Shown: positions 35,119 through 58,954 of the stretch, piece by piece | Numbering within the stretch: position 1 is the first letter of the stretch | Layout of the letters: each line of letters begins with the position of its first letter | NCBI RefSeq assembly: GCF_006152065.1 | Contig: NZ_VDFW01000011.1 | Coordinates: 124,001 to 188,000, forward strand | Direction of reading: 5' to 3' | Length of the DNA: 64,000 nt | Source of the DNA: Amycolatopsis alkalitolerans | Lineage (GTDB): Bacteria; Actinomycetota; Actinomycetes; Mycobacteriales; Pseudonocardiaceae | The notes under the pieces: generated by a model | Told to the model about the DNA's origin: nothing | Databases searched by the model: none | Seen by the model: the letters and a program-made list of their open reading frames with translations, nothing else | Translations under genes and position numbers: made by a program

Positions 35119-35129
35119 AAGGAATGCTC

Positions 35130-38549: not shown

Positions 38550-38660
38550 CTCTGGAGTGCGCGGCGCATAGTGGACGGGCGCGAGTGGGTGCGGCGAGCA
38601 CATCGGGCGGCCACGGCGAACTTCTAGTTTCCAGGCACGTCTGCTGGATTGGAGTTCGTC

Positions 38661-43506: not shown

Positions 43507-43513
43507 CCGGCCA

Positions 43514-43927
43514 TCATGCGTAGCCGCCGGCGTGCTCGACGCGCGGCGCCGTGCTGAGCATCGTGCCGACCCGCTTGATCATCATGTTCATCGCGTACGC
43601 GACCAGCCCCATGTCGGCATCGTCGCTGGTGAGCAGCGCGAGGCAGGCACCGTACCCGGCGGCGGTGACGAAGAGGAACGCGTGGTCCATCTCCACCACC
43701 GTCTGGCGCACCTGCCCGCCGCCGAAATGGCGGCCGGTGCCCTTCGCCAGGCTCTGGAACGCCGAGGCGACGGCCGAGAGGTGTTCGCCGTCCTCCTCGG
43801 TCAGGTTGGTGGACCGGCCGATGAGCAGCCCGTCGGCCGACAGCACGACCGCGCGGTCCGCGCCGGCCACCTGCTGCAGCAGATCGTCGAGCAACCAGTC
43901 CAGCTCGTTCATCCCCGGATTGGTCAT
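43514..43927 (-). CDS. cvnB: Roadblock/LC7 domain protein CvnB
   Basis: A 137-residue Roadblock/LC7 protein, a family that regulates small GTPases such as CvnD. LDWLLDDLLQQVAGADRAVVLSADGLLIGRS and the later VVEMDHAFLFVTAAGYGACLALL form the conserved sheet. ATG at 43927 overlaps the cvnA stop by four bases. The same frame is open far upstream, but there it is only the shadow of cvnA. Confidence 0.92.
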   Translation of the reverse strand: MTNPGMNELDWLLDDLLQQVAGADRAVVLSADGLLIGRSTNLTEEDGEHLSAVASAFQSLAKGTGRHFGGGQVRQTVVEMDHAFLFVTAAGYGACLALLTSDDADMGLVAYAMNMMIKRVGTMLSTAPRVEHAGGYA

Positions 43928-46362
43928 CGGTGCTCTCCAAAGAAGTCGGTGGCGGCGGGATCCTGGCTGCGGGCACGCCGGGTTCCCTGCTGGAACGCGG
44001 CGAGGCGGGTACGGGCTTGGTCCGGGTCGTCCCTGGGCTCCATCGTCGTTTCGGGGAAAGGTGTTTCGTCCGTCCGCAGCTGGGGCGCCAGGTTCTGCTG
44101 GCGCCGCCGCCGTGGCAGCTGGGGCCGGTCGGGCGACAGCGGGCCCTGCGGCTGCGGGGACCGGGTGTCGGCCGGCGGGCGGTTCTGGCGTGGTGGCTGC
44201 TGCGGGCGGCTCGGGGCCGGTGCCGGTGGCTGCTCGCGCGCGGGGCGGAACAGGTCGACGCGCGTGCCGGCCTCGGCGGGGGCGAGCGTGCCGTTGTGCC
44301 CCGGGATGTCCTCCGGCGGCGGCACCGGCTGCGGTTGCCGGGCCGGGAGGCTCGGGTGGTTCGCCGCGGCCTGCTGCGCCGGAACTCCGACCGGCTGGGC
44401 GGCGGGCGCCGGCTCCTCGGCCACCGGCACCGGGGTCAGCAGATCCGAGCGGACGAGCACGATCGCGCGCGTGCCGCCGTAGGCCGAATGCCGCAGGGTG
44501 ACCGAGATACCGTGCCGTGAAGCCAGCCGCGCGACCACGAACAGGCCCAGTCGCGGCTCGTGGGAGAGCGCCATCACGCTGAAGTCCGGCGGGTCGGCGA
44601 GCATCGCGTTGAGCTCTTCGACCTGCTCCGGCTCCATCCCGACGCCCTGGTCCTCGATCTCCAGCACGACGCCGCGGCCGACCACGTCGCCCCAGACCTC
44701 GACCCGTGACTGCGGCGGCGAGAACGACGTCGCGTTGTCGATCAGTTCGGCGAGCAGGTGGATCAGGTCGGCGACCACGGGGCCGTTCACCGCGAGCCCC
44801 GGCATCCGGCCGACGTTGACCCGCGTGTAGTCCTCGGTCTCGGCGGTCGCGCCGCGGATGAGATCGGCCAGCGCCACCGGGTTGCGCCACTGCCGACCGG
44901 GCCGCTCGCCGCCGAGGATGATCAGGTTCTCCGCGTTGCGGCGGGCCCGGGTGGACAGGTGGTCGAGTTTGAACAGCAGGTCGAGCTGGTCGGGGTCCTC
45001 CTGTTTGCGCTCGGCCTCGTCGAGCGCCTGGAGCTGGCGGTGCACCAGGACCTGGCTGCGGTGGGCGATGTTGAGGAACACCTTGGACGTGCCCTCGCGG
45101 GTCTTCGCCTCGTCCACCGCGGCCGCGACGGCGGTCTGCTGCGCCTTGTTGAACGCGTCGGCGACCTGCCCGATCTCGTCGCTTCCGTGGTCCAGCAAGG
45201 ACATCTCGCGGTCGAGGTCGACGTCCTGGCCGCTGCGCACCCGGCCGACCAGATCGGGCAACCGCTTGTCGGCCATCTCCAGGGTCTCCTCGCGCAGGCG
45301 GCCGAGCCGGCGCACGAGCCTGCTCGACATACGCCACGCGAAGACCGTCACGAGGACGGCCAGCACGATCGCCGCCGCCCCGGCCGCGATCGCGGTCATC
45401 AGGTTCCGGTTGCCGGTGTCGATCTCGATATTGGTCGCGTTGGTGCTCTGCTGGATGTAGAGGTTCATCAGCGCGCCGGCGACCTGCGTCGCGCTCGCCT
45501 GCCACTGCTGCGGGGTGACGCCCGGCGGGAGCGCGCGGTGGTTCCCGTTCAGCACCGACCGTTCCACGCTCGTGACGGTCGTCCAGGCCGGGCTCGCCTT
45601 GAGCGCGTTGTACTGCTGCGCGACGGCGGGGATCATCTCGGGCACCGCGTTGTCGAACCCGGCGTGATAGGCGCCGACCACGCCGGTGAACGCGGAGTAC
45701 TCGTCGTCGTTCAGCCCGCCCTGGCTGAACCCGCCCGAGGCGAGGGCGACGCTGCGCGCCATCTGGTCCGCCGCGACGAACAGCGGCATCGCGGTCACGC
45801 GCAGGTACGCGGTCTGCGCGTCCGGCGTTCCTTCGGCGACGCCCAGCAGGCCTTCGGTGTACTCGTCGAGGATGCGGTTGTAGAACGTGTATGCGTCCAG
45901 CAACGAGACCTGGCCGGCATCGACCTTGGCGCGGAAGTCCGGCAGCTGCGCGAAGTTCGCGGCGGTGCGGTCGATACTCGCCTGCACGCGGGCCGGCGCC
46001 TGGCTGTAGAGTCCCGCCAGGTTCTGGGCCTGGCCCGCGCCGGTGGCGTCGGTCTTCGCGCGTGTCTGGTCGAGTTGCGCCGTTACGGATCCGTGTGTCG
46101 CCAGATCGGTGAGCGTGAGCTGGCGCTCCTGCTGCACCGAGGCGAAGAACTGCACGGCGATGGGGGCGGAGTCGTGCACCTTCGTGATGAACTCGCGCGC
46201 CGCGATCGCCGTGTACAGCAGATAGCCTGCCAGCGCCACACCCGCCAGCAGCAGCGCGATACTGGGCACGAAGGCGATCGAGAGCACCCTCGTCCGGATC
46301 GACGCACGTCGGTTATGTGTCCCGGGATTCTTCTTCAAGGCTCCTGCAGGGCCTTCCCACAC
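43924..46362 (-). CDS. cvnA: Sensor histidine kinase-like conservon protein CvnA
   Basis: An 812-residue membrane sensor. It has a basic N-terminus, helix 1 (about 28-50), an extracytoplasmic nitrate/nitrite-sensor-like domain (about 51-318), helix 2 (about 320-342), a HAMP segment and a dimerisation stretch LDHLSTRARRNAENLI (about 465). The HATPase domain (about 540-635, GVVLEIEDQGVGM) is followed by a Pro/Arg-rich disordered tail of 170 residues. The GTG at 46362 is the first supported start. It heads cvnA-B-C-D; a good promoter lies upstream. The kinase may not phosphorylate a partner; conservons lack response regulators. Confidence 0.88.
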   Translation of the reverse strand: MWEGPAGALKKNPGTHNRRASIRTRVLSIAFVPSIALLLAGVALAGYLLYTAIAAREFITKVHDSAPIAVQFFASVQQERQLTLTDLATHGSVTAQLDQTRAKTDATGAGQAQNLAGLYSQAPARVQASIDRTAANFAQLPDFRAKVDAGQVSLLDAYTFYNRILDEYTEGLLGVAEGTPDAQTAYLRVTAMPLFVAADQMARSVALASGGFSQGGLNDDEYSAFTGVVGAYHAGFDNAVPEMIPAVAQQYNALKASPAWTTVTSVERSVLNGNHRALPPGVTPQQWQASATQVAGALMNLYIQQSTNATNIEIDTGNRNLMTAIAAGAAAIVLAVLVTVFAWRMSSRLVRRLGRLREETLEMADKRLPDLVGRVRSGQDVDLDREMSLLDHGSDEIGQVADAFNKAQQTAVAAAVDEAKTREGTSKVFLNIAHRSQVLVHRQLQALDEAERKQEDPDQLDLLFKLDHLSTRARRNAENLIILGGERPGRQWRNPVALADLIRGATAETEDYTRVNVGRMPGLAVNGPVVADLIHLLAELIDNATSFSPPQSRVEVWGDVVGRGVVLEIEDQGVGMEPEQVEELNAMLADPPDFSVMALSHEPRLGLFVVARLASRHGISVTLRHSAYGGTRAIVLVRSDLLTPVPVAEEPAPAAQPVGVPAQQAAANHPSLPARQPQPVPPPEDIPGHNGTLAPAEAGTRVDLFRPAREQPPAPAPSRPQQPPRQNRPPADTRSPQPQGPLSPDRPQLPRRRRQQNLAPQLRTDETPFPETTMEPRDDPDQARTRLAAFQQGTRRARSQDPAATDFFGEHR

Positions 46363-46538: not shown

Positions 46539-48059
46539 TCACGACCGTCCGCGCACCCAGAGCGAGGCCAGCGAATAGCACAGAACGTGCAGCGCGAGCC
46601 GCCGCGCCGGGTCGTCGAGCACCAGGCCCAGTTCCTTCGCCCGCGCGACTCGCGAGAGCACGGTGTTGCGGTGCACGCCGAGCCGCGCGGACGCCTGGCT
46701 GAGGGATCCACCACAGTCGAGGACCGCGAGCACGGTATCGACCAGGGCCGTGCGGTCACGTGCCTCCATCAGATCGGCCAGGCACAGGTCGGCGACCTCG
46801 GCGATCTGCGCGCGCGGCAGCCAGGCCAGCACCGCGCGGGCCCCGACCTGGTCGAACCACTGCACCGAACCGGGGCCGCCGTCGCGGGCCACGTGCGCGG
46901 CCAGCCGGGCTTCGGTGACCGAGCGCATGAGACCGGGGACACCATCGTGCAAGCCGCCGACGCCGAGGACGAGCGCGTGGCTTTCGGCCGCGCCGGCGAC
47001 CGAGCCGATCGCCCGGCGCATCCCGGACGCGGTGTCGTCGGCGCTGTCCTCGCCGTCCGCGAGGTTCTGCCACGAGATCCAGCCGTCGGAGTCGGCGACC
47101 AGCGGCCAGTCCGGCCGGTGCTGCTGCCAGGCGGCGCGGATCAATTGCGTGAGCTCCTCGGCCGGCGCGCCCCGCAGCGGCGAGATCCACACCGCGCGGT
47201 TGCGGCCCTCCACCCGCCAGCCCAGTTCACCCGTCCACGCCGGGACCTCGATTTCGGTCGCCTGCCGGGTGTCGGCGGGCTCGGTGACGAGGCGGCGCAG
47301 CAATCCGAAGGCCGCTTGTTCCTGTGCCGCCTGTGCGGAGCTGTTCATCCGGGTCTGCGCCCACACCGCCAGCAACGGCAGGCGCGCAAGCCGCAGCACC
47401 GATTCGACATGCCCGGCCGCGGCGGCGCTCTTCGCGGGGATCGCGGCGACCAGTTCGGCCCACGGGCGCCCGGCGGCGGTGATGTCGACGCGCACGGTGG
47501 TGCCGACCGGTTTGCCCGCGGCGCCGGCCGCGCGCCCGGCCGTGACGGCGCCGCCGGTCGTGAGCGCGACCGGGATCGGGGAGAGTTCGCTGTTCAGCAC
47601 ACCCAGCACGCCGCGGATGCTCGACTGCTCGGCGAGCCGCTCCGCGCACAGCGCGACCCGCAGCGCGCGGGCCGCTTGCGGCGCGCTGACCTGCCCGGCG
47701 AGGGTGAGCGCGACGTCGACCGGTTCGTCTTCGATGACCAGCAGAGCGATCCCCAGCCGTTCGGCGAGCACGGCACTCGACGGGTTCATCGCGTGGGCGG
47801 GCACCGCGACGGCCGACACGTTGCGTTCCCACCCGGCGTGCAGTGCCGCGGCGAGCGCCCAGCCGCCGGTCGCGGCCTCGTCGTGCAGGACCACCAGGGA
47901 ATGCGGGGCGGCCCGGTGCAGCCGGTCGAAGGTTTCGGCGAGCACGACCTGATGCACGTGCCGCGCCGGATCGGGCAGGTGCACGGCTTCCGCGCGGGAC
48001 AGCGGTTCGACGCGCAGCAGTTCGGCGAGATCCAGCGGGGCCAGTGGCGCTCTGGTCAT
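46539..48059 (-). CDS. PucR family transcriptional regulator
   Basis: A 506-residue regulator with an N-terminal PucR-like sensory region (about 10-120), a middle GGDEF-like/CdaR segment and a C-terminal HTH_30 domain. In the latter LDCGGSLSQASARLGVHRNTVLSRVARAKELGL (about 445-480) is the recognition region. The family typically activates purine, allantoin or amino acid catabolism. It is the last gene of the leftward catabolic operon: its ATG overlaps the DUF917 stop (ATGA). It probably controls the neighbouring transporter and hydantoinase genes. Confidence 0.85.
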   Translation of the reverse strand: MTRAPLAPLDLAELLRVEPLSRAEAVHLPDPARHVHQVVLAETFDRLHRAAPHSLVVLHDEAATGGWALAAALHAGWERNVSAVAVPAHAMNPSSAVLAERLGIALLVIEDEPVDVALTLAGQVSAPQAARALRVALCAERLAEQSSIRGVLGVLNSELSPIPVALTTGGAVTAGRAAGAAGKPVGTTVRVDITAAGRPWAELVAAIPAKSAAAAGHVESVLRLARLPLLAVWAQTRMNSSAQAAQEQAAFGLLRRLVTEPADTRQATEIEVPAWTGELGWRVEGRNRAVWISPLRGAPAEELTQLIRAAWQQHRPDWPLVADSDGWISWQNLADGEDSADDTASGMRRAIGSVAGAAESHALVLGVGGLHDGVPGLMRSVTEARLAAHVARDGGPGSVQWFDQVGARAVLAWLPRAQIAEVADLCLADLMEARDRTALVDTVLAVLDCGGSLSQASARLGVHRNTVLSRVARAKELGLVLDDPARRLALHVLCYSLASLWVRGRS

Positions 48060-49156
48060 CGGCGCCTCGGGTGGTCCAGCGGGATGCCGTGGGAGGCGGG
48101 GCCGACCATAGCCAGCCCTTCGGCCGAGTACCAGACCGCGTCCGCGGGCATGACCAGGACGTCCACCAGGTCGCCCGGCTCCAGGCTGTCCAGTGTGGAC
48201 AGTTCGCCGCGCAGGACGTCCACGAGGCAGATCAGATCGGGCGCCGCCGCGGCGAGCGCGCCGTCGGCGAACGCCGCGACGATCTCGCTGCGCAGCTCGA
48301 GCCGCAGCAGCCGGCCCTGCCCGCCGAGCTCGTCGATCACCACACTGGAGGGGTGCGCCGGGATCGTGACGTCGGCGGGGCGGCTCAGATGCTCCAGTTC
48401 GACGATGCGGCCGCGGCCGATCCGGCGGCAGCCGGTCACCGCGGCGAGCCGGGCCACCAGTACGTCGGGGTCGCTGCAGGCCAGCAGGAGGCGGCCGACG
48501 TTGATCAGCCGGGACACGGTGCCGGTGAGCGCGGCGCGGCGCAGCTGCCCCGCGGTCGCCGGGTAGGCGGCCAGCGCGGCCCACCCGCCGACGACGTCCA
48601 CATTGGACCGTAGCAGCGCGTCCGCGCGGGCGGGCCTCGGCGCGGTGATCGCGACGTTCTCCCCGGTGACGCCGCGGATCACCAGCGGGGTGGGCGAGAC
48701 GCCGCCCAGATGCATCGCGGTGTGGTGGATGAGCGCGAACGTCCGGCCCATCCCGTCGGCGTCCAGCAGTGGCACGTCGAGCTGCGCGGCGGCGGCCAGC
48801 GGCGCGAGCGCGCTGACCGTCGCCGCGGCGATCGGGTACACGGCGTCGAACCGGCGCCGGGTCAGGCGTTCCAGCTCGCGCACGGCTAGCGCGAACTCGT
48901 CGCCCGAGGGCGGCAGATCGGCCAGCGCGGCCCCGGAACCGATCACGCAGATCGCGGCGCAGCGGGTCTCCGGCGCGACCGAGTCCGGGCGCACGAGGGT
49001 GACCGGGCCGTTGCGGTCGAGGAGGCTCGCGGTCCACGACAGCAGCGTGGTCTTGTCCGGCGCGACGGCGGGTGAGTAGAACTTGGCGCCCTCGTACAGC
49101 GCGGGCACGTCCTCCGCGCTGATCGTGGTGGCGGCGCCGACGTACCGGGTGCTCAT
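48056..49156 (-). CDS. DUF917 family protein (S-methyl thiohydantoin desulfurase-like)
   Basis: A 366-residue DUF917 protein. STRYVGAATTISAEDVPALYEGAKFYSPAV starts the fold. GVSPTPLVIRGVTGENVAI and the later LVMPADAVWYSAEGLAMVGPASHG give the metal and substrate region. DUF917 proteins are usually encoded beside HyuA-like proteins, and one branch acts on S-methyl thiohydantoins in ergothioneine breakdown. Here it overlaps both the short HyuA-like gene upstream and the PucR gene downstream by four bases, so all three are translated together. The precise reaction is inferred only. Confidence 0.78.
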   Translation of the reverse strand: MSTRYVGAATTISAEDVPALYEGAKFYSPAVAPDKTTLLSWTASLLDRNGPVTLVRPDSVAPETRCAAICVIGSGAALADLPPSGDEFALAVRELERLTRRRFDAVYPIAAATVSALAPLAAAAQLDVPLLDADGMGRTFALIHHTAMHLGGVSPTPLVIRGVTGENVAITAPRPARADALLRSNVDVVGGWAALAAYPATAGQLRRAALTGTVSRLINVGRLLLACSDPDVLVARLAAVTGCRRIGRGRIVELEHLSRPADVTIPAHPSSVVIDELGGQGRLLRLELRSEIVAAFADGALAAAAPDLICLVDVLRGELSTLDSLEPGDLVDVLVMPADAVWYSAEGLAMVGPASHGIPLDHPRRR

Positions 49157-50352
49157 GGCTCTGGCGCTCCCGCCACGCGCACCCGCACCCGCACGGTGCC
49201 GGACGGGCTGTACGGCACCGCCACGGTCGACACCTCGACGGCGTCGGCCCGGCCCGGGGTGGCGCCGTTGGCCGTCGCGATCGCGGTCGCCCGCGCTTGC
49301 GCGTCGCGGCGGATCCGGTCGAGCTCGTCGGTCGATTCGATGAACGCGATCTCGTCGAGCCACGCGGTCGGGCGGCTCACAGCGGCGCCGACGCAGGTCA
49401 GCTCACCCGCGTCCTGGTCGGCCTTCACGAACGCGATGTCGCTCGCGCGGGAGGCGTCGGCGCGGGTCAGCACGGCGGTCGGGGTGACCAGCGCGCTGCC
49501 GAGCTCGCTCACCATCTGCGGCCGGACGGCGGCGAGGCCGCGGCGAACGTCGCCGACCACCGGCCGCGGGCCGTCCAGCAGCACGCGGCAGTCGGGCGTG
49601 CCAGCGAGATGGGCCGCGCCCTGCAGCCGGAGTGCCTCGGCCGCGCCGATCCCGAGCACCGGCAGCGCGCGGAGCCGCTCGGGGCTGACCCAGCCGCCGT
49701 CGCCGCGCGCGAGGCGGAACGGGATGCCCCGCGCGCCGCGCCGGCACGCGTCGAGGATCCGGCCGGCGGCACCGGTGAGCGCCGCGTTGAGCACGACGGT
49801 CGCCTCGCGCGCGGCGAGCCCGTGCCCGCCGAACTCGTAGGCGGCGGAGATCCGCGCGTCCGGCATCGCCGCCTGCAGGCTGTCCGCGACCTCGCGTTCG
49901 TGCCGCGGCTGGGCGGGCGAACCCGAAGCGACGACGGCGATGTCGCGGGCCGGGCCCTGCTGGATCTCCCGGCAGACCGCGCGCAGTGCGCCGCGGTCGA
50001 TCGGGCGCAGTTCGCGGCCGAACAGGTCATGCCCGCCCGGCACGGTGTGGCGGTGCGCGATGAGCCGTTCGACGACCTCGTCCGGATGCCGCGCCAGCGC
50101 CGGGTCGGTGGCGGCGCGCGGCACGACGCGGATCATCACCACGGGCGAGAGCCGTTCGTGGTGACGCAGCACGTGATCGGCCAGCAGTTCGCTCAGATCG
50201 ACCACGATGCCGCTCGGGGGTTCCGGGCAGGCGCGCACGATCTCGGTGATGAGCTTCGCCGGATCGGTCCCGGTCACCGTGGCGCGCACGGCGCGGCCGG
50301 AGACGGCCACCGCGCACGACCGTCCCGGACCGAGGCTGACGCCCACCCGCAT
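49153..50352 (-). CDS. Short hydantoinase/oxoprolinase N-terminal-like protein
   Basis: A 399-residue protein. MRVGVSLGPGRSCAVAVSGR resembles the phosphate-binding start of HyuA but with Gly-Pro-Gly replacing the usual Gly-Gly-Thr. SALVTPTAVLTRADASRASDIAFVKADQDAGELTCVGAAVSRP resembles the end of a HyuA core. It is about 270 residues shorter than a full HyuA. It overlaps DUF917 by four bases. A GTG two codons upstream is an alternative start. I place it in the HyuA family with moderate confidence; it may act as the ATPase partner of DUF917. Confidence 0.6.
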   Translation of the reverse strand: MRVGVSLGPGRSCAVAVSGRAVRATVTGTDPAKLITEIVRACPEPPSGIVVDLSELLADHVLRHHERLSPVVMIRVVPRAATDPALARHPDEVVERLIAHRHTVPGGHDLFGRELRPIDRGALRAVCREIQQGPARDIAVVASGSPAQPRHEREVADSLQAAMPDARISAAYEFGGHGLAAREATVVLNAALTGAAGRILDACRRGARGIPFRLARGDGGWVSPERLRALPVLGIGAAEALRLQGAAHLAGTPDCRVLLDGPRPVVGDVRRGLAAVRPQMVSELGSALVTPTAVLTRADASRASDIAFVKADQDAGELTCVGAAVSRPTAWLDEIAFIESTDELDRIRRDAQARATAIATANGATPGRADAVEVSTVAVPYSPSGTVRVRVRVAGAPEP

Positions 50353-50415
50353 CTGCACAATCTAGCGTCGCGAAGCGTCTCCATGGGGGGGTGGTGGTCG
50401 GGCGAGGGGCTGGCG

Positions 50416-51411
50416 CTACCTGGACTTTTTCCGCAGGTACCGGTCGACGGTGACGGCGAGCAGGATCAGGCAGCCCTGCACGACCTGCTGGTAGGTGGTG
50501 TCCCAGCCGAGCAGGTTGAAGCCGTTGCCGATGAGGGTGAGCAGCAGCGCGCCGACCACCCCGCGCCAGATCGCGCCCTCGCCGCCGAGGATGCTGGTGC
50601 CCCCGATGACCGCGGCCGCGATCGCGGACAGCTCCATCCCGGTAGCCATGCTCGACTGCGCCGAACCCGCGCGCGAGGCGAGGATCAGCCCGGCGAGCGC
50701 GGAGCAGATCCCGCTCACCACGTAGGCCGCGATCCGGACCTGGCCGACGCGGATGCCGGACAGCCGCGCCGCTTCGGCGTTGCCGCCCACGGCGTAGACG
50801 CGGCGGCCGAACGTGGTGGCCGAGACGAGTACCCAGATCGCGCCGACCACGACGAGGAACACGATCGTCGCCGAGGTCAGCCCGCCGATGGAAGGCCAGG
50901 TGAGCATGGCGAAATCCTCTTGGCTACCGGCCAGCGGGTAGACGATGGATCCGGCGGTGACGATCACGGCGAGCCCGCGGTAGACGATGCTGGTGGCGAG
51001 CGTCGCGATGAACGAATGCACCCCGCTGCGGACCACGACCGTGCCGGTGACCAGCCCGAGCAGCGCGCCCGCGACGACCGCCGCGGCGAACCCGGCGAGC
51101 ACCCCGAACTGGCGCCCGGCCTGCACCCCGATGATCGCCGACACGGCCAGCGAAGCGCTCGCGGTCAGGTCGAAGACCCCGCTCATGATGCAGATGGTCG
51201 CGCCCGCGGCCAGCAGCCCCACGACCGAGCACTGGTCGAGCAGGTTGATCATGTTCGAGGTGCTCAGGAACGTGCTGGTGGACAGCGAAAGCGCCAGCAC
51301 GATCGCGAGCAGCGCGACCACGATCCCGTAGTCGCGCACCCGCCCGCCCCGGCGCGCGGCCTTGGTCGCGGCGGTGGTGCTCGCCGTGTCGGTTGCGGTG
51401 TCGACGGTCAT
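50416..51411 (-). CDS. CUT2-type ABC importer permease (RbsC-like)
   Basis: A 331-residue permease with eight to ten helices. GLLAAGATICIMSGVFDLTASASLAVSAIIG and YAVGGNAEAARLSGIRV are the signature segments of the RbsC/CUT2 family; IAAAVIGGTSILGGEGAIWRGVVGALLL is the conserved C-terminal loop. The family imports ribose, other sugars, AI-2 or purine nucleosides. It overlaps its ATPase partner by four bases (GTG-TGA style) and is followed by the HyuA-like gene after 63 bases. Confidence 0.9.
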   Translation of the reverse strand: MTVDTATDTASTTAATKAARRGGRVRDYGIVVALLAIVLALSLSTSTFLSTSNMINLLDQCSVVGLLAAGATICIMSGVFDLTASASLAVSAIIGVQAGRQFGVLAGFAAAVVAGALLGLVTGTVVVRSGVHSFIATLATSIVYRGLAVIVTAGSIVYPLAGSQEDFAMLTWPSIGGLTSATIVFLVVVGAIWVLVSATTFGRRVYAVGGNAEAARLSGIRVGQVRIAAYVVSGICSALAGLILASRAGSAQSSMATGMELSAIAAAVIGGTSILGGEGAIWRGVVGALLLTLIGNGFNLLGWDTTYQQVVQGCLILLAVTVDRYLRKKSR

Positions 51412-52907
51412 GCCGATTCCCCTTCCTGCCCGAAGGCCACCGCGATGACGTCCTCGCGTGGTGCGCCCCGGGTGAACTGGCCGGCGATCCGGCCGTGCCG
51501 CAGTACCAGCACCCGGTGGGCGAGCCCGAGCACCTCTTCGATCTCCGAGGACACCACGACCACCGCGATGCCCTGTGCGGCCAGTTCGACGATCAGCTGG
51601 TGGATCTGGGTCTTGGCGGCGACGTCGACGCCGCGCGTGGGTTCATCGATCAGCAGCACGCGCGGTCCGCGCAGCAACCACTTGGCGAACAACGCTTTCT
51701 GCTGGTTGCCGCCGGAGAGGGTTTCGATCGCGGCGTCGGGCTTCGCGGCGCGGATGTCCACCGACGCCGAAACCCGCCCGACCGCCGAGCGCTCGCCGCG
51801 GCGCCGGACGAACGGCCCGAACCGCCGAACGCCCAGGGAAGCGAGCGCCACGTTCTCGCGCACCGAGCGGGCCATGACCAGGCCCTGGTCCTTGCGGGAC
51901 TCTGGCACCATCGCGATCCCCGCACCCATCGCGCGCCGCGGGGTCGGTCTCGTCAGCGCCTTCCCGTCGACCTCGACGACGCCCGCGGTGGCCCGGTCGG
52001 CGCCGAACAGCAGCCGCAGGGTTTCGGTGCGGCCGCTGCCGACGAGCCCGGCGATGCCGAGGATCTCCCCGGCCCGCACGGTCAGGTCGATGCCCTCGAC
52101 CATGCCGCGGCCCAGGCCCTTCGCGGCCAGGCGCACGGGCGCGCCGGCGGGCAGCGGCGGGGGATCGGGGTGCGGTACGTCGAGCTGCCGCCCGACCATG
52201 TGCCGGACGAGCGTGCCGGGGGTGTGCTTCGCCGCTTCCTCGCTGATCACCAGGTCCCCGTCGCGCAGCACGGTGACCCGGTCGGCGACGCCGAGCACCT
52301 CGTCGAGGAAGTGCGAAACGAGGATGACGGTGGTGCCACCGGCCGCGAGCCGCCGGATCAGCTCCAGCAGGTTCTCCTTCTCGCGCTCGGTCAGCACCGC
52401 CGTCGGCTCGTCCATGGCCAGCACCCGCGCGCCGCGCGCCAGTGAGCGAAGGATCTCGACCTGCTGCTGGACCCCGATCGGCAGTTCGGCCACGCGGGCC
52501 TGCGGATCGACCACGAACCCCGTGGTGGCAAGGAGTCCGCCGAACGCCCGGCGGTCGCCGCGGCGGCGCGCGAACCCCGCCCGGTTCGACCACCGGCCGA
52601 GGAACACGTTCTCCAGCACGGTCCTGGCCGGCACCAGCGCGCCCTCCTGCGAGATGAGGCTGATGCCGTGCCGGATCGCGTCCCGCGGGTTGTGGATCGT
52701 GGCCGGGACGCCGTCGAAGCTGACCGTGCCCGCGTCGGCCCGGACGGCGCCGCCGAGGATCTTCAGCAGCGTGCTCTTGCCGGCGCCGTTTTCCCCGACG
52801 AGGCTGTGGATCTCACCGGGGGCGATGTCCAGGTCGATGTCGCGGAGGACCGAAACCCCGCTGTAGCTCTTTCCGGCTCCGCGCACGGAGATCGCGGGCG
52901 CCCGCAT
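51408..52907 (-). CDS. CUT2-type ABC importer ATPase (RbsA-like, two nucleotide domains)
   Basis: A 499-residue fused ATPase. The first half has Walker A GENGAGKST, signature variant LPIGVQQQVEI and Walker B VLAMDEPTAVL. The second half has the degenerate GLVGSGRTE P-loop, LSGGNQQK signature and VLLIDEPTRGVDV, the usual asymmetric pattern of RbsA/MglA. ATG at 52907 shares one base with the stop of the binding-protein gene. It energises the permease encoded next. Confidence 0.92.
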   Translation of the reverse strand: MRAPAISVRGAGKSYSGVSVLRDIDLDIAPGEIHSLVGENGAGKSTLLKILGGAVRADAGTVSFDGVPATIHNPRDAIRHGISLISQEGALVPARTVLENVFLGRWSNRAGFARRRGDRRAFGGLLATTGFVVDPQARVAELPIGVQQQVEILRSLARGARVLAMDEPTAVLTEREKENLLELIRRLAAGGTTVILVSHFLDEVLGVADRVTVLRDGDLVISEEAAKHTPGTLVRHMVGRQLDVPHPDPPPLPAGAPVRLAAKGLGRGMVEGIDLTVRAGEILGIAGLVGSGRTETLRLLFGADRATAGVVEVDGKALTRPTPRRAMGAGIAMVPESRKDQGLVMARSVRENVALASLGVRRFGPFVRRRGERSAVGRVSASVDIRAAKPDAAIETLSGGNQQKALFAKWLLRGPRVLLIDEPTRGVDVAAKTQIHQLIVELAAQGIAVVVVSSEIEEVLGLAHRVLVLRHGRIAGQFTRGAPREDVIAVAFGQEGESA

Positions 52908-53920
52908 CAGTCGGAGTAGTCCGCGGTCTGCCCGGCGAGGGTCTCCTTCGTGCCGAGCGCCTTGTACGGGGTCAGCGTGCGCGCGTCGGTCGCGACCGGC
53001 ACCTGCTGGCCGCGCGCCTTGGCCAGCCCCAGTTCGGCCGCCTTCGCGCCCTCCGTCTTCTCGGGGATGACGTACACGCCGTACCAGGAACCGGTCTTGA
53101 CGCCGTCGAAGGCCTGGGTCGAACCGCCGTTGCCGACGAACTTGATGTTCTTGCCCGCCGCCAGCGGCGCCGCGCCCTCGATCGCCTGCGACGAGCCGAT
53201 CACGACGTTGACGTCGGGGTGGGCCTGCAGCACGTTCTGGAACGCCGCCCGCCCGGAGTCCGGCGTGTAGCCGCCGACCACGCTCGCCACGACGTCGGCG
53301 CCACCGGCCTTGAGCGCGTCCACGGTGGCGTTGGTGCGGGCGGTGTCGAGCGGGTAGTTCGCGAAGCCCTGCAGGTAGGCCACCTTGCACGGGGTCGCCG
53401 CGGCCTCCTTGCACGCGCCGAGGCCCAGGGTGGCCAGGCCCTGGCCGTTGAGCGTGGGCGCGTCCACGATGCTGACCGTGCCGGGCACCTGCGGGCCGGT
53501 CGTCGAGTAGTCACCGCCGACCGGGGTGAACTCGATGACCACGGTGATCCCGGCCGCGACGGCCTGCTTGACCGCGTTCACGATCGCGGTCCCGTCATTG
53601 GCCTGCACGATCACCACGTCGTAGCGCTTGGACGTGACGGCGTCCTGCAGCTGGTTGACCTGGGTGGGGCCGTCGAAGTTCGAATCCAGGAAGGTCGCGG
53701 TCGCGTTGTGCGCCTTCGCGTACTCCTGGATCCCGGCCCACGTCGCCTGCGCGAAGGAGTTGGCCTTCGCGAAGCCGAGGAAGCCGATCGACAGGGTCTT
53801 GTCCGCGGGCGCCGCCGAAGTGGGTGCCGCGGCCTGGGTGCTGGGGCGGCTGCACGCGGCCAGCGACACCGTCAGTGCCGCCGCGCCCGCGAGTGCCGCG
53901 AGTCGAAGCGAGGTTTTCAT
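52907..53920 (-). CDS. CUT2-type ABC importer substrate-binding lipoprotein
   Basis: A 337-residue periplasmic-binding-protein-like lipoprotein. The signal peptide ends LAAC (lipidated Cys23) and is followed by an Ala/Ser/Pro linker and a type 1 binding fold (TLSIGFLGFAKANSFAQATWAGIQEYAK, then VVIVQANDGTAIVNAVKQAV). GGAGGAGGG precedes the ATG. It heads the leftward operon binding protein-ATPase-permease-HyuA-like-DUF917-PucR and is divergent from the second hyuA. The ligand is unknown; the ribose-type fold also binds purines and other polar ring compounds. Confidence 0.9.
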   Translation of the reverse strand: MKTSLRLAALAGAAALTVSLAACSRPSTQAAAPTSAAPADKTLSIGFLGFAKANSFAQATWAGIQEYAKAHNATATFLDSNFDGPTQVNQLQDAVTSKRYDVVIVQANDGTAIVNAVKQAVAAGITVVIEFTPVGGDYSTTGPQVPGTVSIVDAPTLNGQGLATLGLGACKEAAATPCKVAYLQGFANYPLDTARTNATVDALKAGGADVVASVVGGYTPDSGRAAFQNVLQAHPDVNVVIGSSQAIEGAAPLAAGKNIKFVGNGGSTQAFDGVKTGSWYGVYVIPEKTEGAKAAELGLAKARGQQVPVATDARTLTPYKALGTKETLAGQTADYSD

Positions 53921-54032
53921 CGAGCCCTCCTCCGCCTTTCTCCAGTGGTCGAGGTGGGGGAATGCTGACTGTGCGGCAGATCGCGCGGATGTGCTCGCAG
54001 CACAGCGCGGGCGCCGGCGGCTGTGCACCGTC

Positions 54033-54065
54033 ACACGGCCGTGTCCTCGGCGAAACCCTGATACT
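54033..54065. promoter_or_regulatory. Palindrome and promoter between divergent catabolic operons
   Basis: ACACGGCCGTGT (54033-54044) is a perfect 12-bp palindrome in the 152-bp gap between the importer operon and hyuA. GATACT (54060-54065) is a near -10 box ending seven bases before the hyuA ATG, which lacks a Shine-Dalgarno. One regulator, for instance the PucR protein, could control both directions from the palindrome. Confidence 0.5.
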
Positions 54066-54072
54066 GCGCCGC

Positions 54073-56070
54073 ATGACACAGACCAGCAGGCTGGCGATCG
54101 ACGTCGGCGGGACGTTCACCGACGTCGTCCAGCTGCGGCCCGCCACCGGCGAGCTGCGCTTCGACAAGGTCGCGACGACGCCCGATTCGCCCACCGCCGG
54201 GGTGCTCGACGCGTTCGCCGTGACCGGTACCGGATTCGGCGAGATCGCGATGTTCACGCACGGCACGACGCTGGGTCTCAACGCGCTGCTGACCCGCACC
54301 GGCGCCCGCACCGCGGTGATCGGCACCCGCGGGTTCCGCGACGTGTACCTGCTCGGCCGCACCGACCGCCGCACGAACTACGACATCACCTACCGCCCGC
54401 CGGAGCCGCTGCTCGAACGCTACGACACCTTCGAGGTGACCGAGCGCAGCCTGTTCGACGGCAGCGTGCACACGCCGTTCGACGTCGAGGACGCGCGGCG
54501 GGTGGCTCGCGTCGTCGCTTCGCGGGGCTACGAGTCGGTCGCGGTCGCGTTCCTGCACGCCTATGCCAACCCGGCGCACGAGCGGGCGATGCGCGAGGTA
54601 CTCGGCCAGGTCGCGCCCGGGGTGGCGGTGACGTGCTCGCACGAGCTGTCCCGCGAGTATCGCGAGTACGAGCGCACCAGCACGGCGGTGCTCGACGCGT
54701 ACGTGAAGCCGATCGTGCGCCGCTACCTGGAGGATCTCGACGGCGAGCTGATCGCTCGCGGGTTCGGCGGGCGGTTCCTGATGACCCGCTCGGGCGGCGG
54801 CGCGATGACCGTCGGCACCGCGCGGGAGCAGCCGGTGAGCCTCATCCTGTCGGGACCGGCGGGCGGGGTGATCGGCGCGGCGGCGTTCGCGGAGATGGTC
54901 GGCGAGCCGAATCTGATCACGATCGACATGGGCGGCACGAGCCTCGACGCCTCGCTGATCCTCGACGGCGAACCGGTGCTGTACCAGGGTGCCGAGTTCG
55001 AGGGGCTGCCGATCAACACGCCCTCGCTCTACATCCACACGATCGGCGCGGGCGGAGGGTCCGTCGCGTATCTCGACGAGGCCGGTGCGCTGCAGGTCGG
55101 GCCGCAGAGCGCGGGCGCCGCCCCGGGCCCGGCGTCCTACGGCCGCGGCGGCACCGCGCCCACGTTCACCGACGCCGCGCTCGCGATCGGCTATCTCGGC
55201 ACCGACACGCCGCTCGGCGGGAAGCTGGTACTGGATCGCGTGCTCGCGGAGAAAGCGCTTTCACCGATCGCGCGGCGGCTCGGGATGAGCGTGCCCGCGC
55301 TCGCCCGCGGCATCGTGCGCATCTCCAGCACGAAGATCATGGGCGCGGTCCGGGCGATCACGGTCGAGGTCGGCCGTGACCCGAAGGACTTCGCGCTGCT
55401 GTCCTTCGGCGGCGGGGGCGGGCTGGTGGCCGTGGACGTGGCCGCCGAGCTGGGTATCCCGACCGTGATCGTGCCGCCCGGACAGGGCGCGTTCTCCGCG
55501 TTCGGCATGCTCATGGCCGACGTGCAGCACGACTACTCCCGCACGCTCGTCTCGCCGCTGGCGGACCTCGACGCGGCTGAGGTCGAGGCTGCCTACCGGG
55601 AGATGGCGCGGGAGGCGGCGAAAACCCTTGCCGCGGAAGGCTTCGCGGCGACGATGAGCCGCAGCCTGGACGTCCGGTACGCCGGGCAGGAGCATTCGGT
55701 GACCGTCCCGTTCGCGGATCTGGCCGGCGTGCGGGAGCAGTTCGCACGCTTGCACGAGCGGCAGTACGGGCACACCATGAGCGACCCCGTCGAGGTCACC
55801 ACCCTCCGGCTGCGCGCCACCGGCGCGGTGGACAAGCCCCGGCTGCCGCTGCTGGACGCGCGGGCTTCGGGCGCGCCGGAACCGGACGGCACCCGCGAGG
55901 TGTTCGGTGCCGGGCGCCCGTATTCGCTCCACACCAGGGAAAACCTGCTCGCCGGGGACGAGATCGACGGACCCGCCGTTATCGCTGAGCACACCGCCAC
56001 CACCGTCATCCACGCCGGCCACCACCTGCGGGTGGGCCCGTACGGCGAACTCGTCATCGGAGTGTCATGA
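54073..56070 (+). CDS. hyuA: Hydantoinase/oxoprolinase subunit A (second copy)
   Basis: A 665-residue HyuA-like protein with RLAIDVGGTFTDVVQL at the start and LITIDMGGTSLDASLI in the middle, the two phosphate-binding strands. THGTTLGLNALL and SGPAGGVIGAAAFAEM are also typical. It is only distantly similar to the copy at 38661 outside these motifs, so it probably has a different substrate. The ATG lies close behind a GATACT box, likely leaderless. It overlaps hyuB by four bases. A perfect GAAAGCGCTTTC palindrome lies inside at 55251-55262. Confidence 0.87.
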   Translation: MTQTSRLAIDVGGTFTDVVQLRPATGELRFDKVATTPDSPTAGVLDAFAVTGTGFGEIAMFTHGTTLGLNALLTRTGARTAVIGTRGFRDVYLLGRTDRRTNYDITYRPPEPLLERYDTFEVTERSLFDGSVHTPFDVEDARRVARVVASRGYESVAVAFLHAYANPAHERAMREVLGQVAPGVAVTCSHELSREYREYERTSTAVLDAYVKPIVRRYLEDLDGELIARGFGGRFLMTRSGGGAMTVGTAREQPVSLILSGPAGGVIGAAAFAEMVGEPNLITIDMGGTSLDASLILDGEPVLYQGAEFEGLPINTPSLYIHTIGAGGGSVAYLDEAGALQVGPQSAGAAPGPASYGRGGTAPTFTDAALAIGYLGTDTPLGGKLVLDRVLAEKALSPIARRLGMSVPALARGIVRISSTKIMGAVRAITVEVGRDPKDFALLSFGGGGGLVAVDVAAELGIPTVIVPPGQGAFSAFGMLMADVQHDYSRTLVSPLADLDAAEVEAAYREMAREAAKTLAAEGFAATMSRSLDVRYAGQEHSVTVPFADLAGVREQFARLHERQYGHTMSDPVEVTTLRLRATGAVDKPRLPLLDARASGAPEPDGTREVFGAGRPYSLHTRENLLAGDEIDGPAVIAEHTATTVIHAGHHLRVGPYGELVIGVS

Positions 56071-57779
56071 ACGACTCCATCACCACCGAAATCATCCGGC
56101 ACGGGCTGCTCGCCGCCGCCGAAGAGATGGCGCGGAACCTGTGCCGCACCGCTTACAACACGGTCGTCTACGAGATCCACGACTACGGCATCGGCATCCA
56201 CGACGCGCGCGGGGACGTGGTCGCCGACGCGCCGGGGATCGCGATCTTCACGCGTGGCAACGACGCCGGCATCAAGGAGGCGGTGAAGTTCCTCGGCGCG
56301 GACGCGATGCGGCCCGGGGACGTGTTCGTGCTGAACTACCCGTACTGGTCGTCCGCGCACACCCTCGACCCGCTCGTGTTCGCGCCGGTCCACGACGGCG
56401 GCGGGCTCATCGGGTTCGCCTCATGCCGCATCCACGTGCTCGACCTCAAGCAGAAGGATCCGGGTTACGTCCTCGATTCCACCGACATGTACCAGGAGGG
56501 CCTGTTCTTCCCGGCGACCCGGCTGTATCGCGAAGGCGTGCAGAACGACGACATCTTCAACATCATCCGTTTCAACAGCCGCCTGCCCGAACGCACGATC
56601 GGTGATCTGCAGGCCCAGGTCTCGGCCTGCGTCACGGGCGTCCGGCGTACGCGGGAGATCGCCGCGAAGTACGGCGCGGGCACGCTCGTCGCAGCGATGG
56701 ACGCGATCAACGACCACGGCGAGCGGCTGGCCCGGCTCGCGCTCGCGAAGCTGCCCAACGGCACCTGGACCGCCGAAGACTTCGTCGACTCCGACGGGGT
56801 GGACCTGGACCGGATGATCAAGCTGCGCGCCACCGTCACCGTCACCCAGGACGAGCTGCTGATCGACTGGACCGGCAGCGAGCACGGTGTCCGCGGCCCG
56901 GTCAACCTGCCGCTCGGTCAGACCGAAGCGTTGTGCAGCCTGGTGTTCAAGGCGCTCACCACCCCAGGCACCTCGGTGGTGGCTGGGAACTTCCGGCCGC
57001 TGCGGGTGGTGACCGAACCGGGTTCGGTGATGCACGCGGTGCCGCCGATGCCGACGTTCACGCTGTGGACCGGGCTGCTCGCTGGCGAGGTGGTGCTGAA
57101 AGCGCTTTCGCAGGGCATGCCCGACCGGGTACCGGCGTGTTCGGGCGGGGACGTCTGCTCGATGATGGGCCTGGGCGTCAACCCGCGCACGGGCGAGGCC
57201 TGGCTCGAGGCGACGAACGAGGCCGTCGGCTTCGGCGGGCACGCGGGCGGCGACGGCGCGGACGGGATCATGCACCTGTCGGAACCGGGCTGCCGCAACA
57301 ATCCGGTCGAGGTGCTGGAGACCAAGTCGCCGATGTTCATCGAGTCCTACGGCTACCGGCTCGACACCGGGGGCGCGGGGCGGCACCGCGGCGGCGTCGG
57401 GGTCAGCCGGGTGTACCGGTTCACCGCGCCCTCGACCGGGATCTGCCTGGTGTACAAGACGAAAACGAAGCCGTGGCCGATCGGCGGCGGGCGCCCGGGG
57501 GAGAACAACCGCATCGTGCTCAACCCGGGTACCGCGCGCGAGATCGTGCAGGGCGGCAGCTACAACCGCCTCGAAGCCGGTGAGGTGCTGGTCAACGACA
57601 CCGGGGGAGGTGGCGGGTACGGCGATCCCTTCGAGCGGGAACCCGCGCGGGTCGCCCGCGACGTGCGTAACGGGTTCGTCTCGCCCGAGGCGGCCGCCCG
57701 CGAGTACGGCGTGCTCGTCGACCCGGCTACCTTCGAGGTGGATATCGAGGAAACGGCGAGGCTGAGGAGCGTGGCGTGA
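56067..57779 (+). CDS. hyuB: Hydantoinase/oxoprolinase subunit B (second copy)
   Basis: A 570-residue HyuB-like protein: DSITTEIIRHGLLAAAEEMARNLCRTAYNTVVYE at the start, DVFVLNYPYWSSAHTLDPLVF in place of the usual NDPY segment, and YRLDTGGAGRHRGGVGV and GGGGGYGDPFERE near the end. It pairs with the HyuA encoded just before (ATGA overlap), and its stop overlaps the amidohydrolase start. A GAAAGCGCTTTC palindrome is at 57098-57109. Confidence 0.87.
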   Translation: MNDSITTEIIRHGLLAAAEEMARNLCRTAYNTVVYEIHDYGIGIHDARGDVVADAPGIAIFTRGNDAGIKEAVKFLGADAMRPGDVFVLNYPYWSSAHTLDPLVFAPVHDGGGLIGFASCRIHVLDLKQKDPGYVLDSTDMYQEGLFFPATRLYREGVQNDDIFNIIRFNSRLPERTIGDLQAQVSACVTGVRRTREIAAKYGAGTLVAAMDAINDHGERLARLALAKLPNGTWTAEDFVDSDGVDLDRMIKLRATVTVTQDELLIDWTGSEHGVRGPVNLPLGQTEALCSLVFKALTTPGTSVVAGNFRPLRVVTEPGSVMHAVPPMPTFTLWTGLLAGEVVLKALSQGMPDRVPACSGGDVCSMMGLGVNPRTGEAWLEATNEAVGFGGHAGGDGADGIMHLSEPGCRNNPVEVLETKSPMFIESYGYRLDTGGAGRHRGGVGVSRVYRFTAPSTGICLVYKTKTKPWPIGGGRPGENNRIVLNPGTAREIVQGGSYNRLEAGEVLVNDTGGGGGYGDPFEREPARVARDVRNGFVSPEAAAREYGVLVDPATFEVDIEETARLRSVA

Positions 57780-58954
57780 GCCTTTCGATCATCAACGGCA
57801 CCGTGTTCGACGGCGTGTCCGAGGAGCTGATCGAGGAATCCGTGCACATCGAGGACGGCCGGATCGCGCGGATCGGCGGCCCCTTCGAGGCGGACCGGGT
57901 GCTCGACGCGCGCGGCAAGACCGTCCTGCCCGGACTCATCGACGCGCATTTCCACGCCTACGGCATCGCCCTCGACCTGGTGGAGATCGAGTCACGGTCG
58001 CCGAGCTACCTCGCCTACTCGGGCGCGCGCCGGCTGAAAAGGGCTCTGGAGCGGGGTTTCACCACCGTGCGGGACGTGGCCGGCGGCGACCCCGGTATCA
58101 CGCGCGCGCTCGCCGAGGGGCTCATCGCCGGGCCCCGCTACCTCTACACCGGGCCCGCGCTCAGCCAGACCGGCGGGCACGGCGACCCGCGGGGCACCGA
58201 CAGCGATTTCTGCGGCTGCCACGAGTTCCTGAACGAGGTCGTCGACGGTGCCGACGCGCTGCGGCAGGCGGTGCGTGACCGGTTCCGCCGCGGCGCGCAC
58301 GCTATCAAGATCATGGCTTCGGGTGGGGTCGTCTCGCTGACCGACCCGATCCGCGTCCCGCAGTACTCACCCGAAGAAGTCCGTGCGGTGACGGAAGAAG
58401 CGAAGCGGCGCGGCAGCTACGTGGCGGCGCACGCTTACTCGCCGGAGGCGATCCGGCATGCGGTCGAGAACGGCGTGCGCTCGGTGGAACACGGCAACCT
58501 GCTCGACGCCGAGACGGCGAAGCTGATGGCCGAGCACGACGCCTTCCTCGTGCCGACGCTGGCCGCCTACGACGCGATGGACCGGCGCGGCGCGGAGCTG
58601 GGCATGGCGGCGGTGTCGCAGGAGAAGAACCGCGAGGTGCTGGCGTCCGGGCAGAAGGCCGTCGAGGTGGCGCGCGCGGCCGGGGTGCGGATCGGGTTCG
58701 GCACCGATCTGATGGGCGTGCTGGAGGACGAGCAGTTGACCGGCCTGCGCCTGCAGGTCGAGGTGGAGGGGCCGCTGCGGGTCCTGCGAGCGGCCACCTC
58801 GGTCAACGCCGAGCTGCTGCGGCGCCCGGACCTCGGCCGGGTCGCCGCCGGCTGTGCCGGGGACCTGCTGCTCGTCGACGGCGATCCGTTCGCGGATCCG
58901 GCGGTGCTGTGGTCCGGCGAGCGCACGGTCGTGCGAGCCGGGCAGGTTGTATAA
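57776..58954 (+). CDS. Metal-dependent amidohydrolase
   Basis: A 392-residue amidohydrolase-superfamily enzyme, close to imidazolonepropionase/prolidase-like hydrolases. LPGLIDAHFH gives the metal-binding His58-x-His60, KIMASGGVVS the bridging Lys, AAHAYSPEAI and SVEHGNLL the two further histidines, and GFGTDLMG the catalytic Asp. It should hydrolyse a cyclic amide, a natural second step after HyuAB or a hydantoin-like ring opening. GTG overlaps the hyuB stop. Its TAA stop is embedded in the GTATA-N6-TATAC palindrome. Confidence 0.85.
   Translation: MSLSIINGTVFDGVSEELIEESVHIEDGRIARIGGPFEADRVLDARGKTVLPGLIDAHFHAYGIALDLVEIESRSPSYLAYSGARRLKRALERGFTTVRDVAGGDPGITRALAEGLIAGPRYLYTGPALSQTGGHGDPRGTDSDFCGCHEFLNEVVDGADALRQAVRDRFRRGAHAIKIMASGGVVSLTDPIRVPQYSPEEVRAVTEEAKRRGSYVAAHAYSPEAIRHAVENGVRSVEHGNLLDAETAKLMAEHDAFLVPTLAAYDAMDRRGAELGMAAVSQEKNREVLASGQKAVEVARAAGVRIGFGTDLMGVLEDEQLTGLRLQVEVEGPLRVLRAATSVNAELLRRPDLGRVAAGCAGDLLLVDGDPFADPAVLWSGERTVVRAGQVV

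Follow-up and report, generated by a model that had tools for sequence, protein, structure and literature searches.

In the 64,000-nucleotide stretch of Amycolatopsis alkalitolerans DNA analysed here (contig NZ_VDFW01000011.1, positions 124,001 to 188,000; hereafter the window), an island of nine tightly packed genes at 46539–58954 encodes a CUT2-type importer, a short HyuA-like protein (sHyuA), a DUF917 protein, a PucR-family regulator, a HyuA–HyuB pair (HyuAB1) and an amidohydrolase. We propose that this island serves uptake and ring opening within a system that scavenges L-hydroxyproline (Hyp), probably proline as well, and that occupies approximately positions 32374–58954. The proposal draws on gene content, synteny, conserved motifs, a shared palindrome and an association with Hyp genes, all computed from sequence, and we put its probability, the substrate included, at roughly 0.55. 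The cyclic compounds concerned perhaps come from collagen-like proteins.

In the order of reactions that we infer, the importer, with its non-sugar binding protein, would take up a cyclic amide of Hyp or proline, most likely a 2,5-diketopiperazine cyclo(X-Hyp/Pro). HyuAB1 and a second pair, HyuAB2, would then activate the secondary amide as an imidate with ATP and hydrolyse it; hydantoinase is described as using ATP for imidate phosphorylation (PMC5214803). By our own chemical argument, the tertiary X-CO-N(Hyp) bond forms no imidate and only Hyp-CO-NH-X can do so, hence ring opening would yield X-Hyp rather than Hyp-X. X-Hyp is what an Xaa-Pro-type amidohydrolase would be expected to act on; the island's enzyme would split it, and Hyp would pass through an epimerase, a three-subunit D-Hyp dehydrogenase and a DHDPS-family deaminase to 2-oxoglutarate semialdehyde and onward to 2-oxoglutarate. 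sHyuA and the DUF917 protein, with PucR, may form a unit tied to HyuAB2 with an accessory or sensing role.

The island and its conservation

All nine genes that the initial annotation had placed in two divergent operons are present, and their Pfam families were confirmed (Peripla_BP_4, ABC_tran, BPD_transp_2, Hydant_A_N, S-Me-THD_N/C, HTH_30, Hydantoinase_A/B and Amidohydro_1), the Hydant_A_N match of sHyuA being weak at 28.5 bits. The minus strand carries the genes for the substrate-binding protein (SBP), the CUT2 ATPase, the permease, sHyuA, DUF917 and PucR, and the plus strand those for HyuA1, HyuB1 and the amidohydrolase. Same-strand neighbours overlap by 1–4 nt, with the permease–sHyuA junction as the sole exception. 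While the genes within the original bounds are real, those bounds proved too short: a Hyp operon and HyuAB2 (together 32374–42367) had not been connected with the island, and the functional unit is larger, extending leftward to 32374.

All nine genes recur, with the same divergent layout, in four other Amycolatopsis genomes at 76–93% identity and at seven loci beyond the genus (L029, L037, L039, L055–L058, where L denotes a locus and G a genome; the amidohydrolase of L039 is truncated by the locus edge). Because the arrangement recurs in the same order both in Amycolatopsis and at other loci, it is not due to chance, and the two operons, predicted to be conserved together, indeed co-occur at 12 loci. 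An sHyuA orthologue at no less than 77% identity is present in five of 19 Amycolatopsis genomes, A. alkalitolerans included.

A DUF917 gene of the window's subgroup with an adjacent sHyuA gene occurs at 20 loci (the window, L025–L031, L037–L041, L055–L060 and L091), and at every one the order is sHyuA, DUF917, PucR (in L038 PucR is truncated by the contig end). L038, at 3.8 kb, is too short for partner counts; among the remaining 19 core loci HyuB2 accompanies the trio at 19, HyuA2 at 18 (in L091 it lies beyond the edge), the amidohydrolase at 15, the CUT2 importer at 13 and HyuAB1 at 12. The invariant tie of sHyuA and DUF917 to PucR and HyuB2 is the fact that needs explaining. L088 and L089 hold HyuAB1, the amidohydrolase and a diverged CUT2 importer (30–47% identity) with no match to sHyuA, DUF917 or PucR.

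Association with hydroxyproline genes

The operon at 32374–38549 lies on the same strand as HyuAB2 and directly upstream of it, and most of its genes overlap. Its content is that of a HypR-type L-Hyp operon, with DAO, Fer2_4, Pyr_redox/BFD, DHDPS and Pro_racemase proteins encoded in order and accompanied by a GntR regulator. Streptomyces coelicolor uses L-Hyp by means of SCO6289–6293 under the repressor HypR (SCO6294), fails to grow on L-Hyp when the epimerase gene SCO6293 is deleted, and has a putative collagenase gene that HypR also represses (PMC6608401). As in S. coelicolor, a semialdehyde dehydrogenase gene was not seen in the Hyp operon of the window. A candidate HypR-like operator, CAGTGCAATGTGAC, is conserved in the two other Amycolatopsis sequences aligned (L115 and L116). 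Since HypR-like hits are no more numerous in the window than chance would give (16 at up to three mismatches against 16.9 expected, and two at up to two mismatches against 0–3 in 20 mononucleotide shuffles), we rely only on the position and conservation of this site; the second two-mismatch hit, at 54021–54034, is not claimed as a site.

The link between the island and Hyp catabolism is strong: Hyp genes adjoin it in several layouts, though not everywhere. They do so in all five island-bearing Amycolatopsis. L115 and L116 keep all seven Hyp operon genes and HyuAB2 beside the island, and L113 and L114 keep those Hyp genes that fall inside the examined stretch, with 3.1–3.6 kb separating the Pyr_redox from the DHDPS gene. 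In L113 this gap contains an MFS transporter gene and a gene for aconitase X (430 bits), a family reported as cis-3-hydroxy-L-proline dehydratase and as often encoded in Hyp gene clusters (PMC5144071). Elsewhere in the order, the epimerase gene of G039 (79%) is one gene away from the amidohydrolase gene. Within the class, L088 and L089 bring together D-Hyp dehydrogenase, CUT2, HyuAB1, amidohydrolase and GntR genes, and L093 has the amidohydrolase inside a Hyp cluster. Two Burkholderia plasmids carry an amidohydrolase relative (46%) beside a 4-Hyp epimerase gene, and Paenarthrobacter has the order HyuAB2, GAF, amidohydrolase, PutA on a plasmid that gave no epimerase match. Among more distant amidohydrolase relatives on plasmids, the neighbours gave no proline racemase or D-Hyp dehydrogenase match.

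In Arthrobacter plasmid p232, approximately 46 kb (125750–171995) encode an M9 metallopeptidase, two proline-racemase-family proteins (epimerase 74%), a D-Hyp dehydrogenase-like trio, DHDPS, ornithine cyclodeaminase family (OCD) and aldehyde dehydrogenase proteins, an Opp-type importer, an Xaa-Pro-aminopeptidase-like M24 protein and a hydrolase weakly like prolyl iminopeptidase, followed by sHyuA–DUF917–PucR, HyuAB2 and the amidohydrolase (62%). This plasmid, from strain Rue61a, is typed as conjugative and appears to carry a collagen-to-2-oxoglutarate block (L139 7700–9967, L040); nearby, one gene bears the annotation of the fosfomycin efflux transporter AbaF.

In G122 roughly 30 kb separate the epimerase gene from the island on one contig. 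In G1045 and G287 it is on another contig; the island contigs there measure 34 and 33 kb, and these two genomes are counted neither as adjacent nor as separate. At E ≤ 1e-140 the epimerase was found in 10 of 12 core-bearing genomes outside Amycolatopsis (G620, of the classical type, and two plasmid records were left out) versus 36 of 200 genomes of the order, seven of which are known core carriers. As the core-bearing genomes are related, this enrichment counts as support and not as a test.

The amidohydrolase and the HyuAB pairs

The amidohydrolase had been described as of imidazolonepropionase type, an identity we rejected: it scores 29.8 bits with TIGR01224 (cut-off 298) versus 246.5 bits with the Xaa-Pro dipeptidase model NF051886, its best family by far, for which the cut-off of 500 is not reached. 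Its closest solved relatives are 3MKV (300.8 bits) and 3FEQ/3N2C (291.8 bits), the latter labelled prolidase; both presumably act on X-Pro dipeptides and N-acyl-prolines as hydrolases. HxH, Lys, His, His and Asp positions, which we take to be metal ligands, are conserved in all seven amidohydrolases aligned, one of them the Burkholderia relative. By sequence, then, the enzyme is a relative of Xaa-Pro dipeptidases.

A small GAF-domain protein of about 150–165 residues is encoded before the amidohydrolase in Arthrobacter, Paenarthrobacter and Paraburkholderia (L040 22549–23004; L094 7475–7927; L101 7446–7943), and luciferase-like (LLM) oxidoreductase genes lie near it at three loci (L029 2257–3144; L058 18477–19472; L091 11979–13139).

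HyuA1 retains its DxGGT motifs and HyuB1 the Asp-His-Asp-His tetrad, as seen in an alignment to 6YRA. ATP motifs and metal tetrad are among the residues mutated in the caprolactamase CapAB (PMC8453981), and HyuA1 and HyuB1 score 468.8 and 213.6 bits with the caprolactamase equivalog models, below the cut-offs of 1000 each. In a tree HyuA1 and HyuA2 fall into separate clades, and HyuA2 is 83% identical to the HyuA encoded near PucR in Pseudonocardia alaniniphila (L037). The function first suggested for the island, that a cyclic amide is imported and opened in steps, is still the best reading of these enzymes.

The nature of the amide is less certain. Fused hydantoins derived from proline or Hyp would give N-carbamoyl-Pro/Hyp through HyuAB, to be cleaved by the amidohydrolase as an N-acyl-proline; the best solved relative of both HyuA1 and HyuB1 is the N-methylhydantoinase 7HK5, the amidohydrolase's solved relatives presumably accept N-acyl-prolines, and the Hyp genes are adjacent. 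Such hydantoins are, however, uncommon as nutrients, and the Arthrobacter set comes with a peptide-type importer, an Xaa-Pro aminopeptidase-like protein and an M9 peptidase, so we regard this route as decidedly unlikely. It is also unlikely that the amidohydrolase serves linear Hyp or Pro dipeptides while the HyuAB pairs act on some other lactam (oxoproline- or valerolactam-like), the two being neighbours through co-regulation only. That division would account for L093, where the amidohydrolase and Hyp cluster come without a HyuAB match, and for the core modules without an amidohydrolase (L030, L031, L059 and L060), but the HyuAB1 and amidohydrolase genes overlap in the window and are adjacent at all 12 loci that have HyuAB1 and the core, as well as in L088 and L089.

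Several observations weigh against the diketopiperazine proposal itself. The NCBIfam cut-offs are unreached for the Xaa-Pro dipeptidase and caprolactamase models, and likewise for 4-Hyp epimerase (PRK13971, 356.1 bits, cut-off 376); fused Pro/Hyp hydantoins would suit nearly the same enzymes; and the four reduced modules just named show no amidohydrolase in the examined DNA. The epimerase gene is elsewhere in the genome in G094, G136, G1046, G403, G146 and G034, and no epimerase was found at E ≤ 1e-20 in G036 and G1032. At five loci of one family (L084–L087 and L090) no match to Hyp genes lies within about 10 kb of the amidohydrolase. Lastly, a search of the window's genome gave no M9 collagenase, though its control also matched nowhere.

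The importer

Its Peripla_BP_4 SBP, double ABC ATPase and BPD_transp_2 permease confirm the importer as CUT2-type. The CUT2 family consists mostly of sugar importers, and AraH and AraG are the best-scoring named models for the permease and ATPase, both under their cut-offs; a sugar importer beside unrelated amide-hydrolysing genes might therefore be considered. Yet the SBP scores only 25.4 bits with RbsB (cut-off 337), and the Asp-Arg, Asn-Asp and Gly-x-Asp segments, to which we assign sugar-ligand roles, were not found in it when it was aligned with its relatives. All three segments are present in three of five solved relatives (4YV7, 7E7M and 2IOY) and only partly in 4YLE and 4RY9; the other eight SBPs in the alignment did not show them either. 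These nine SBPs, from both CUT2 groups, have in common two cysteines and a G-x7-PQxxG loop. With the importer genes immediately upstream of sHyuA at 13 of the 19 core loci, import of an ordinary sugar is highly improbable.

Short HyuA and DUF917

Two sets of HyuA-like ATPases had been assigned to the island, which holds for HyuA1 with its intact motifs but not for sHyuA. The PHOSPHATE 1 (DxGGT) and PHOSPHATE 2 (DVGGT) motifs are missing from all 11 sHyuA sequences compared; in L058 and L031 the first was checked over the full reading frame. A block of about 100 residues found in classical DUF917-partner HyuA and in HyuA1, where it includes GxxPGP, is missing as well. The ASKHA motifs are described as strictly conserved among hydantoinase alpha subunits (PMC5214803). 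Between the window and four other Amycolatopsis, the ratio of nonsynonymous to synonymous substitution rates (dN/dS) is 0.24–0.35 for sHyuA and 0.08–0.26 for twelve other genes tested; the gene is therefore under purifying selection, less constrained than its neighbours. On these comparisons sHyuA is a probable pseudo-ATPase.

The DUF917 protein passes the Pfam S-Me-THD gathering scores (27 each) with 97.9 and 114.7 bits. A GxGGGG motif near the N terminus, our alignment-derived and not a published criterion for classical DUF917, is present in all five classical members aligned and in none of 12 from the window's subgroup, while Asp132, Asp134, Arg138, Arg183, Glu291, Asp298 and Asp307 are kept in all 17 sequences. 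The AlphaFold model (mean pLDDT 34.8) was unusable. This subgroup is rare: with about five candidates scored per genome, matches at E ≤ 1e-40 came from 11 of 397 genomes sampled within the order, nine of which reached at least 42% identity, and from two of 396 genomes of the phylum, A. alkalitolerans itself included and the second at 34%.

The initial annotation had favoured a thiohydantoin or modified hydantoin as substrate, on the model of ergothioneine breakdown. Membership in the S-Me-THD Pfam family fits such a pathway. The scores with the desulfurase equivalogs NF058532 and NF058529, in contrast, are 51.3 and 34.6 bits (cut-offs 450 and 440), the classical glycine-rich motif is lost, the amidohydrolase has 31.8 bits with ErtD (cut-off 650) and the neighbouring operon is for Hyp use, all of which makes the pathway very unlikely here.

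The same genome has a classical DUF917 locus, L032 (G000:C1:372001-392000), with three DUF917 genes and one gene each for a HyuA-like protein and PucR. G620 (L062) has a related operon encoding an ATP-motif-bearing HyuA, DUF917, HyuB, HyuA and an Opp-type importer, with a proline-racemase-family gene (47%) about 15 kb off; it is possible that this operon is a relative of the ancestor of the sHyuA–DUF917 pair. More speculatively, and with considerable doubt on our part, sHyuA and the DUF917 subgroup could be a co-degenerated pseudoenzyme pair that is ATP-independent and still binds substrate as a sensing or activating partner of PucR or HyuAB2. With HyuAB2 the pair would then be an undescribed ATP-dependent cyclic-dipeptide hydrolase system, opening diketopiperazine-locked Hyp to bacteria.

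A palindrome shared by two promoter regions

Each of the 12 divergent regions between SBP and HyuA1 contains a single copy of the palindrome GTGC-N5-GCAC, invariably extended to TGTGC-N5-GCACA (in the window TGTGCTCGCAGCACA). It also occurs at least once upstream of HyuA2 in all nine loci with enough upstream DNA (in the window GGTGCGGCGAGCACA; two sites in L118), there as the 13-base core only and in no region as the 15-base form. Gaps of 3, 4, 6 or 7 bases gave no site in either set; with a gap of 8, two of the 12 regions and none of the nine had one. Mononucleotide shuffles gave a mean of 0.33 loci (maximum 3) for the divergent set and 0.12 (maximum 2) for the HyuA2 set. Region edges were taken from tblastn hits, so that some regions include coding DNA; L117 and L118 are a fixed stretch of about 630 bases, and some loci overlap slightly. 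L057 is outside the HyuA2 count, and L055 and L058 show no site in the 80 and 172 bases available upstream of HyuA2.

Outside the 12-locus group the palindrome lies near HyuA2 in L030 only: it was not found there in L031, L040, L059, L060 or Paenarthrobacter L094. It was likewise not found in six sHyuA upstream regions (L030, L031, L040, L041, L059 and L060), upstream of the SBP gene in the CUT2-bearing L091, or in L088 and L089, which are without PucR. The count in the window alone (5 versus 3.45 expected) is not above chance, and the evidence for the palindrome is therefore its position and conservation. Given that the 15-base form has four sites in the genome, one of them the island's, against 12 for a reversed-pattern control, and that the reading frames around the other three were only listed, we claim no wider regulon. 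The sites at both promoters suggest that the SBP/HyuA1 and HyuA2 gene sets probably share one regulator, and within the 12-locus group PucR is the likeliest to bind.

Features of the window

Table 1. Genes and candidate operators of the proposed Hyp scavenging system
Feature	Position	Strand	Basis
HypR-like operator candidate CAGTGCAATGTGAC	32349–32362	+	2 mismatches to S. coelicolor HypR consensus
DAO-family flavoprotein, D-Hyp dehydrogenase beta-like	32374–33513	+	PF01266 243 bits; SCO6289 position
2Fe-2S protein, D-Hyp dehydrogenase gamma-like	33510–33776	+	Fer2_4 88 bits
Pyr_redox + BFD protein, D-Hyp dehydrogenase alpha-like	33757–35118	+	Pfam; SoxA family 118 bits, cut-off 1164
DHDPS-family protein	35130–36014	+	PF00701 154 bits
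4-Hyp epimerase/proline racemase family	36014–37015	+	PF05544 434 bits
OCD family, Delta1-pyrroline-2-carboxylate reductase-like	37012–37884	+	PRK06141 201 bits, cut-off 322
GntR-FCD regulator, HypR-like by position	37881–38549	+	Pfam
Operator candidate upstream of HyuA2 GGTGCGGCGAGCACA	38588–38602 (core 38589–38601)	n/a	Position, conservation
HyuA2, predicted ATP-dependent lactamase alpha subunit	38649–40700	+	Pfam; start TTG 38649 or in-frame ATG 38661
HyuB2	40697–42367	+	Pfam PF02538 552 bits
PucR-family regulator	46539–48059	-	HTH_30 55.7 bits
DUF917/S-Me-THD-like protein without glycine-rich motif of classical members	48056–49156	-	Pfam, alignment
sHyuA, pseudo-ATPase candidate	49153–50352	-	Pfam, alignment, dN/dS
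CUT2 permease	50416–51411	-	Pfam, NCBIfam
CUT2 ATPase, two ABC domains	51408–52907	-	Pfam, NCBIfam
SBP, lipoprotein-like start (judged by eye), without sugar-binding Asp/Arg motifs	52907–53920	-	
Operator candidate TGTGCTCGCAGCACA, divergent promoter region	53990–54004	n/a	Position, conservation
HyuA1, predicted ATP-dependent lactamase alpha subunit, ASKHA phosphate motifs intact	54073–56070	+	
HyuB1, Asp-His-Asp-His metal tetrad aligned to CapB	56067–57779	+	
Xaa-Pro-dipeptidase-like amidohydrolase	57776–58954	+	

Between HyuAB2 and PucR lies a conservon-like set of three genes (42474–46362, minus strand), for a NIT/HAMP/HATPase sensor, a DUF742 protein and a GTPase-like protein; the four other Amycolatopsis carry all three next to their islands as well. 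HyuB2 directly abuts PucR in Actinomadura, and in Pseudonocardia alaniniphila roughly 1 kb separates the two. To the right of the island, 60574–62967 (plus strand) encodes a regulator with HTH, NB-ARC and TPR domains.

Comparison with known systems

Diketopiperazine degradation was called little known in a 2013 study (PMC3852281) and DUF917 proteins experimentally uncharacterized in 2024 (PMC11055893); NCBIfam now includes desulfurase models for the DUF917 family. No paper on this gene system was found in titles and abstract starts of the open-licence PMC literature, among the matches listed for DUF917, hydantoinase, diketopiperazine and hydroxyproline topics. The gene set offers the ATP-dependent lactamases, DUF917 and the dipeptidase one named, testable substrate class, and both the possible non-sugar use of a CUT2 importer and the conserved pseudo-ATPase are worth study.

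Of the known systems, the S. coelicolor HypR regulon (SCO6289–SCO6294) shares with the window the domains and order of 32374–37015, the GntR gene and a HypR-like site upstream of the DAO gene; the window differs in its inserted OCD gene and in HyuAB2 downstream, and the regulon as tabulated lists no HyuAB, DUF917, amidohydrolase or CUT2 importer (PMC6608401). The amidohydrolase matches the prolidases 3MKV and 3FEQ/3N2C over nearly their full length, including the HxH, Lys, His, His and Asp positions and the QTGGHGD and AHAY segments, but the segment following the Asp of GTDLMG differs. Like CapAB of Pseudomonas jessenii (PMC8453981), HyuAB1 keeps the DxGGT motifs and the metal tetrad, although it falls below the equivalog cut-offs, has another gene context and presumably acts on another substrate. 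Acetophenone carboxylase is a precedent for two HyuA-like subunits within one complex (PMC5214803), both of which retain the ATP motifs that sHyuA has lost. Finally, the thiohydantoin desulfurases and ErtD of ergothioneine use have the DUF917 family in common with the island, whereas the window's proteins score far under the cut-offs, have lost the glycine-rich motif and include a different amidohydrolase.

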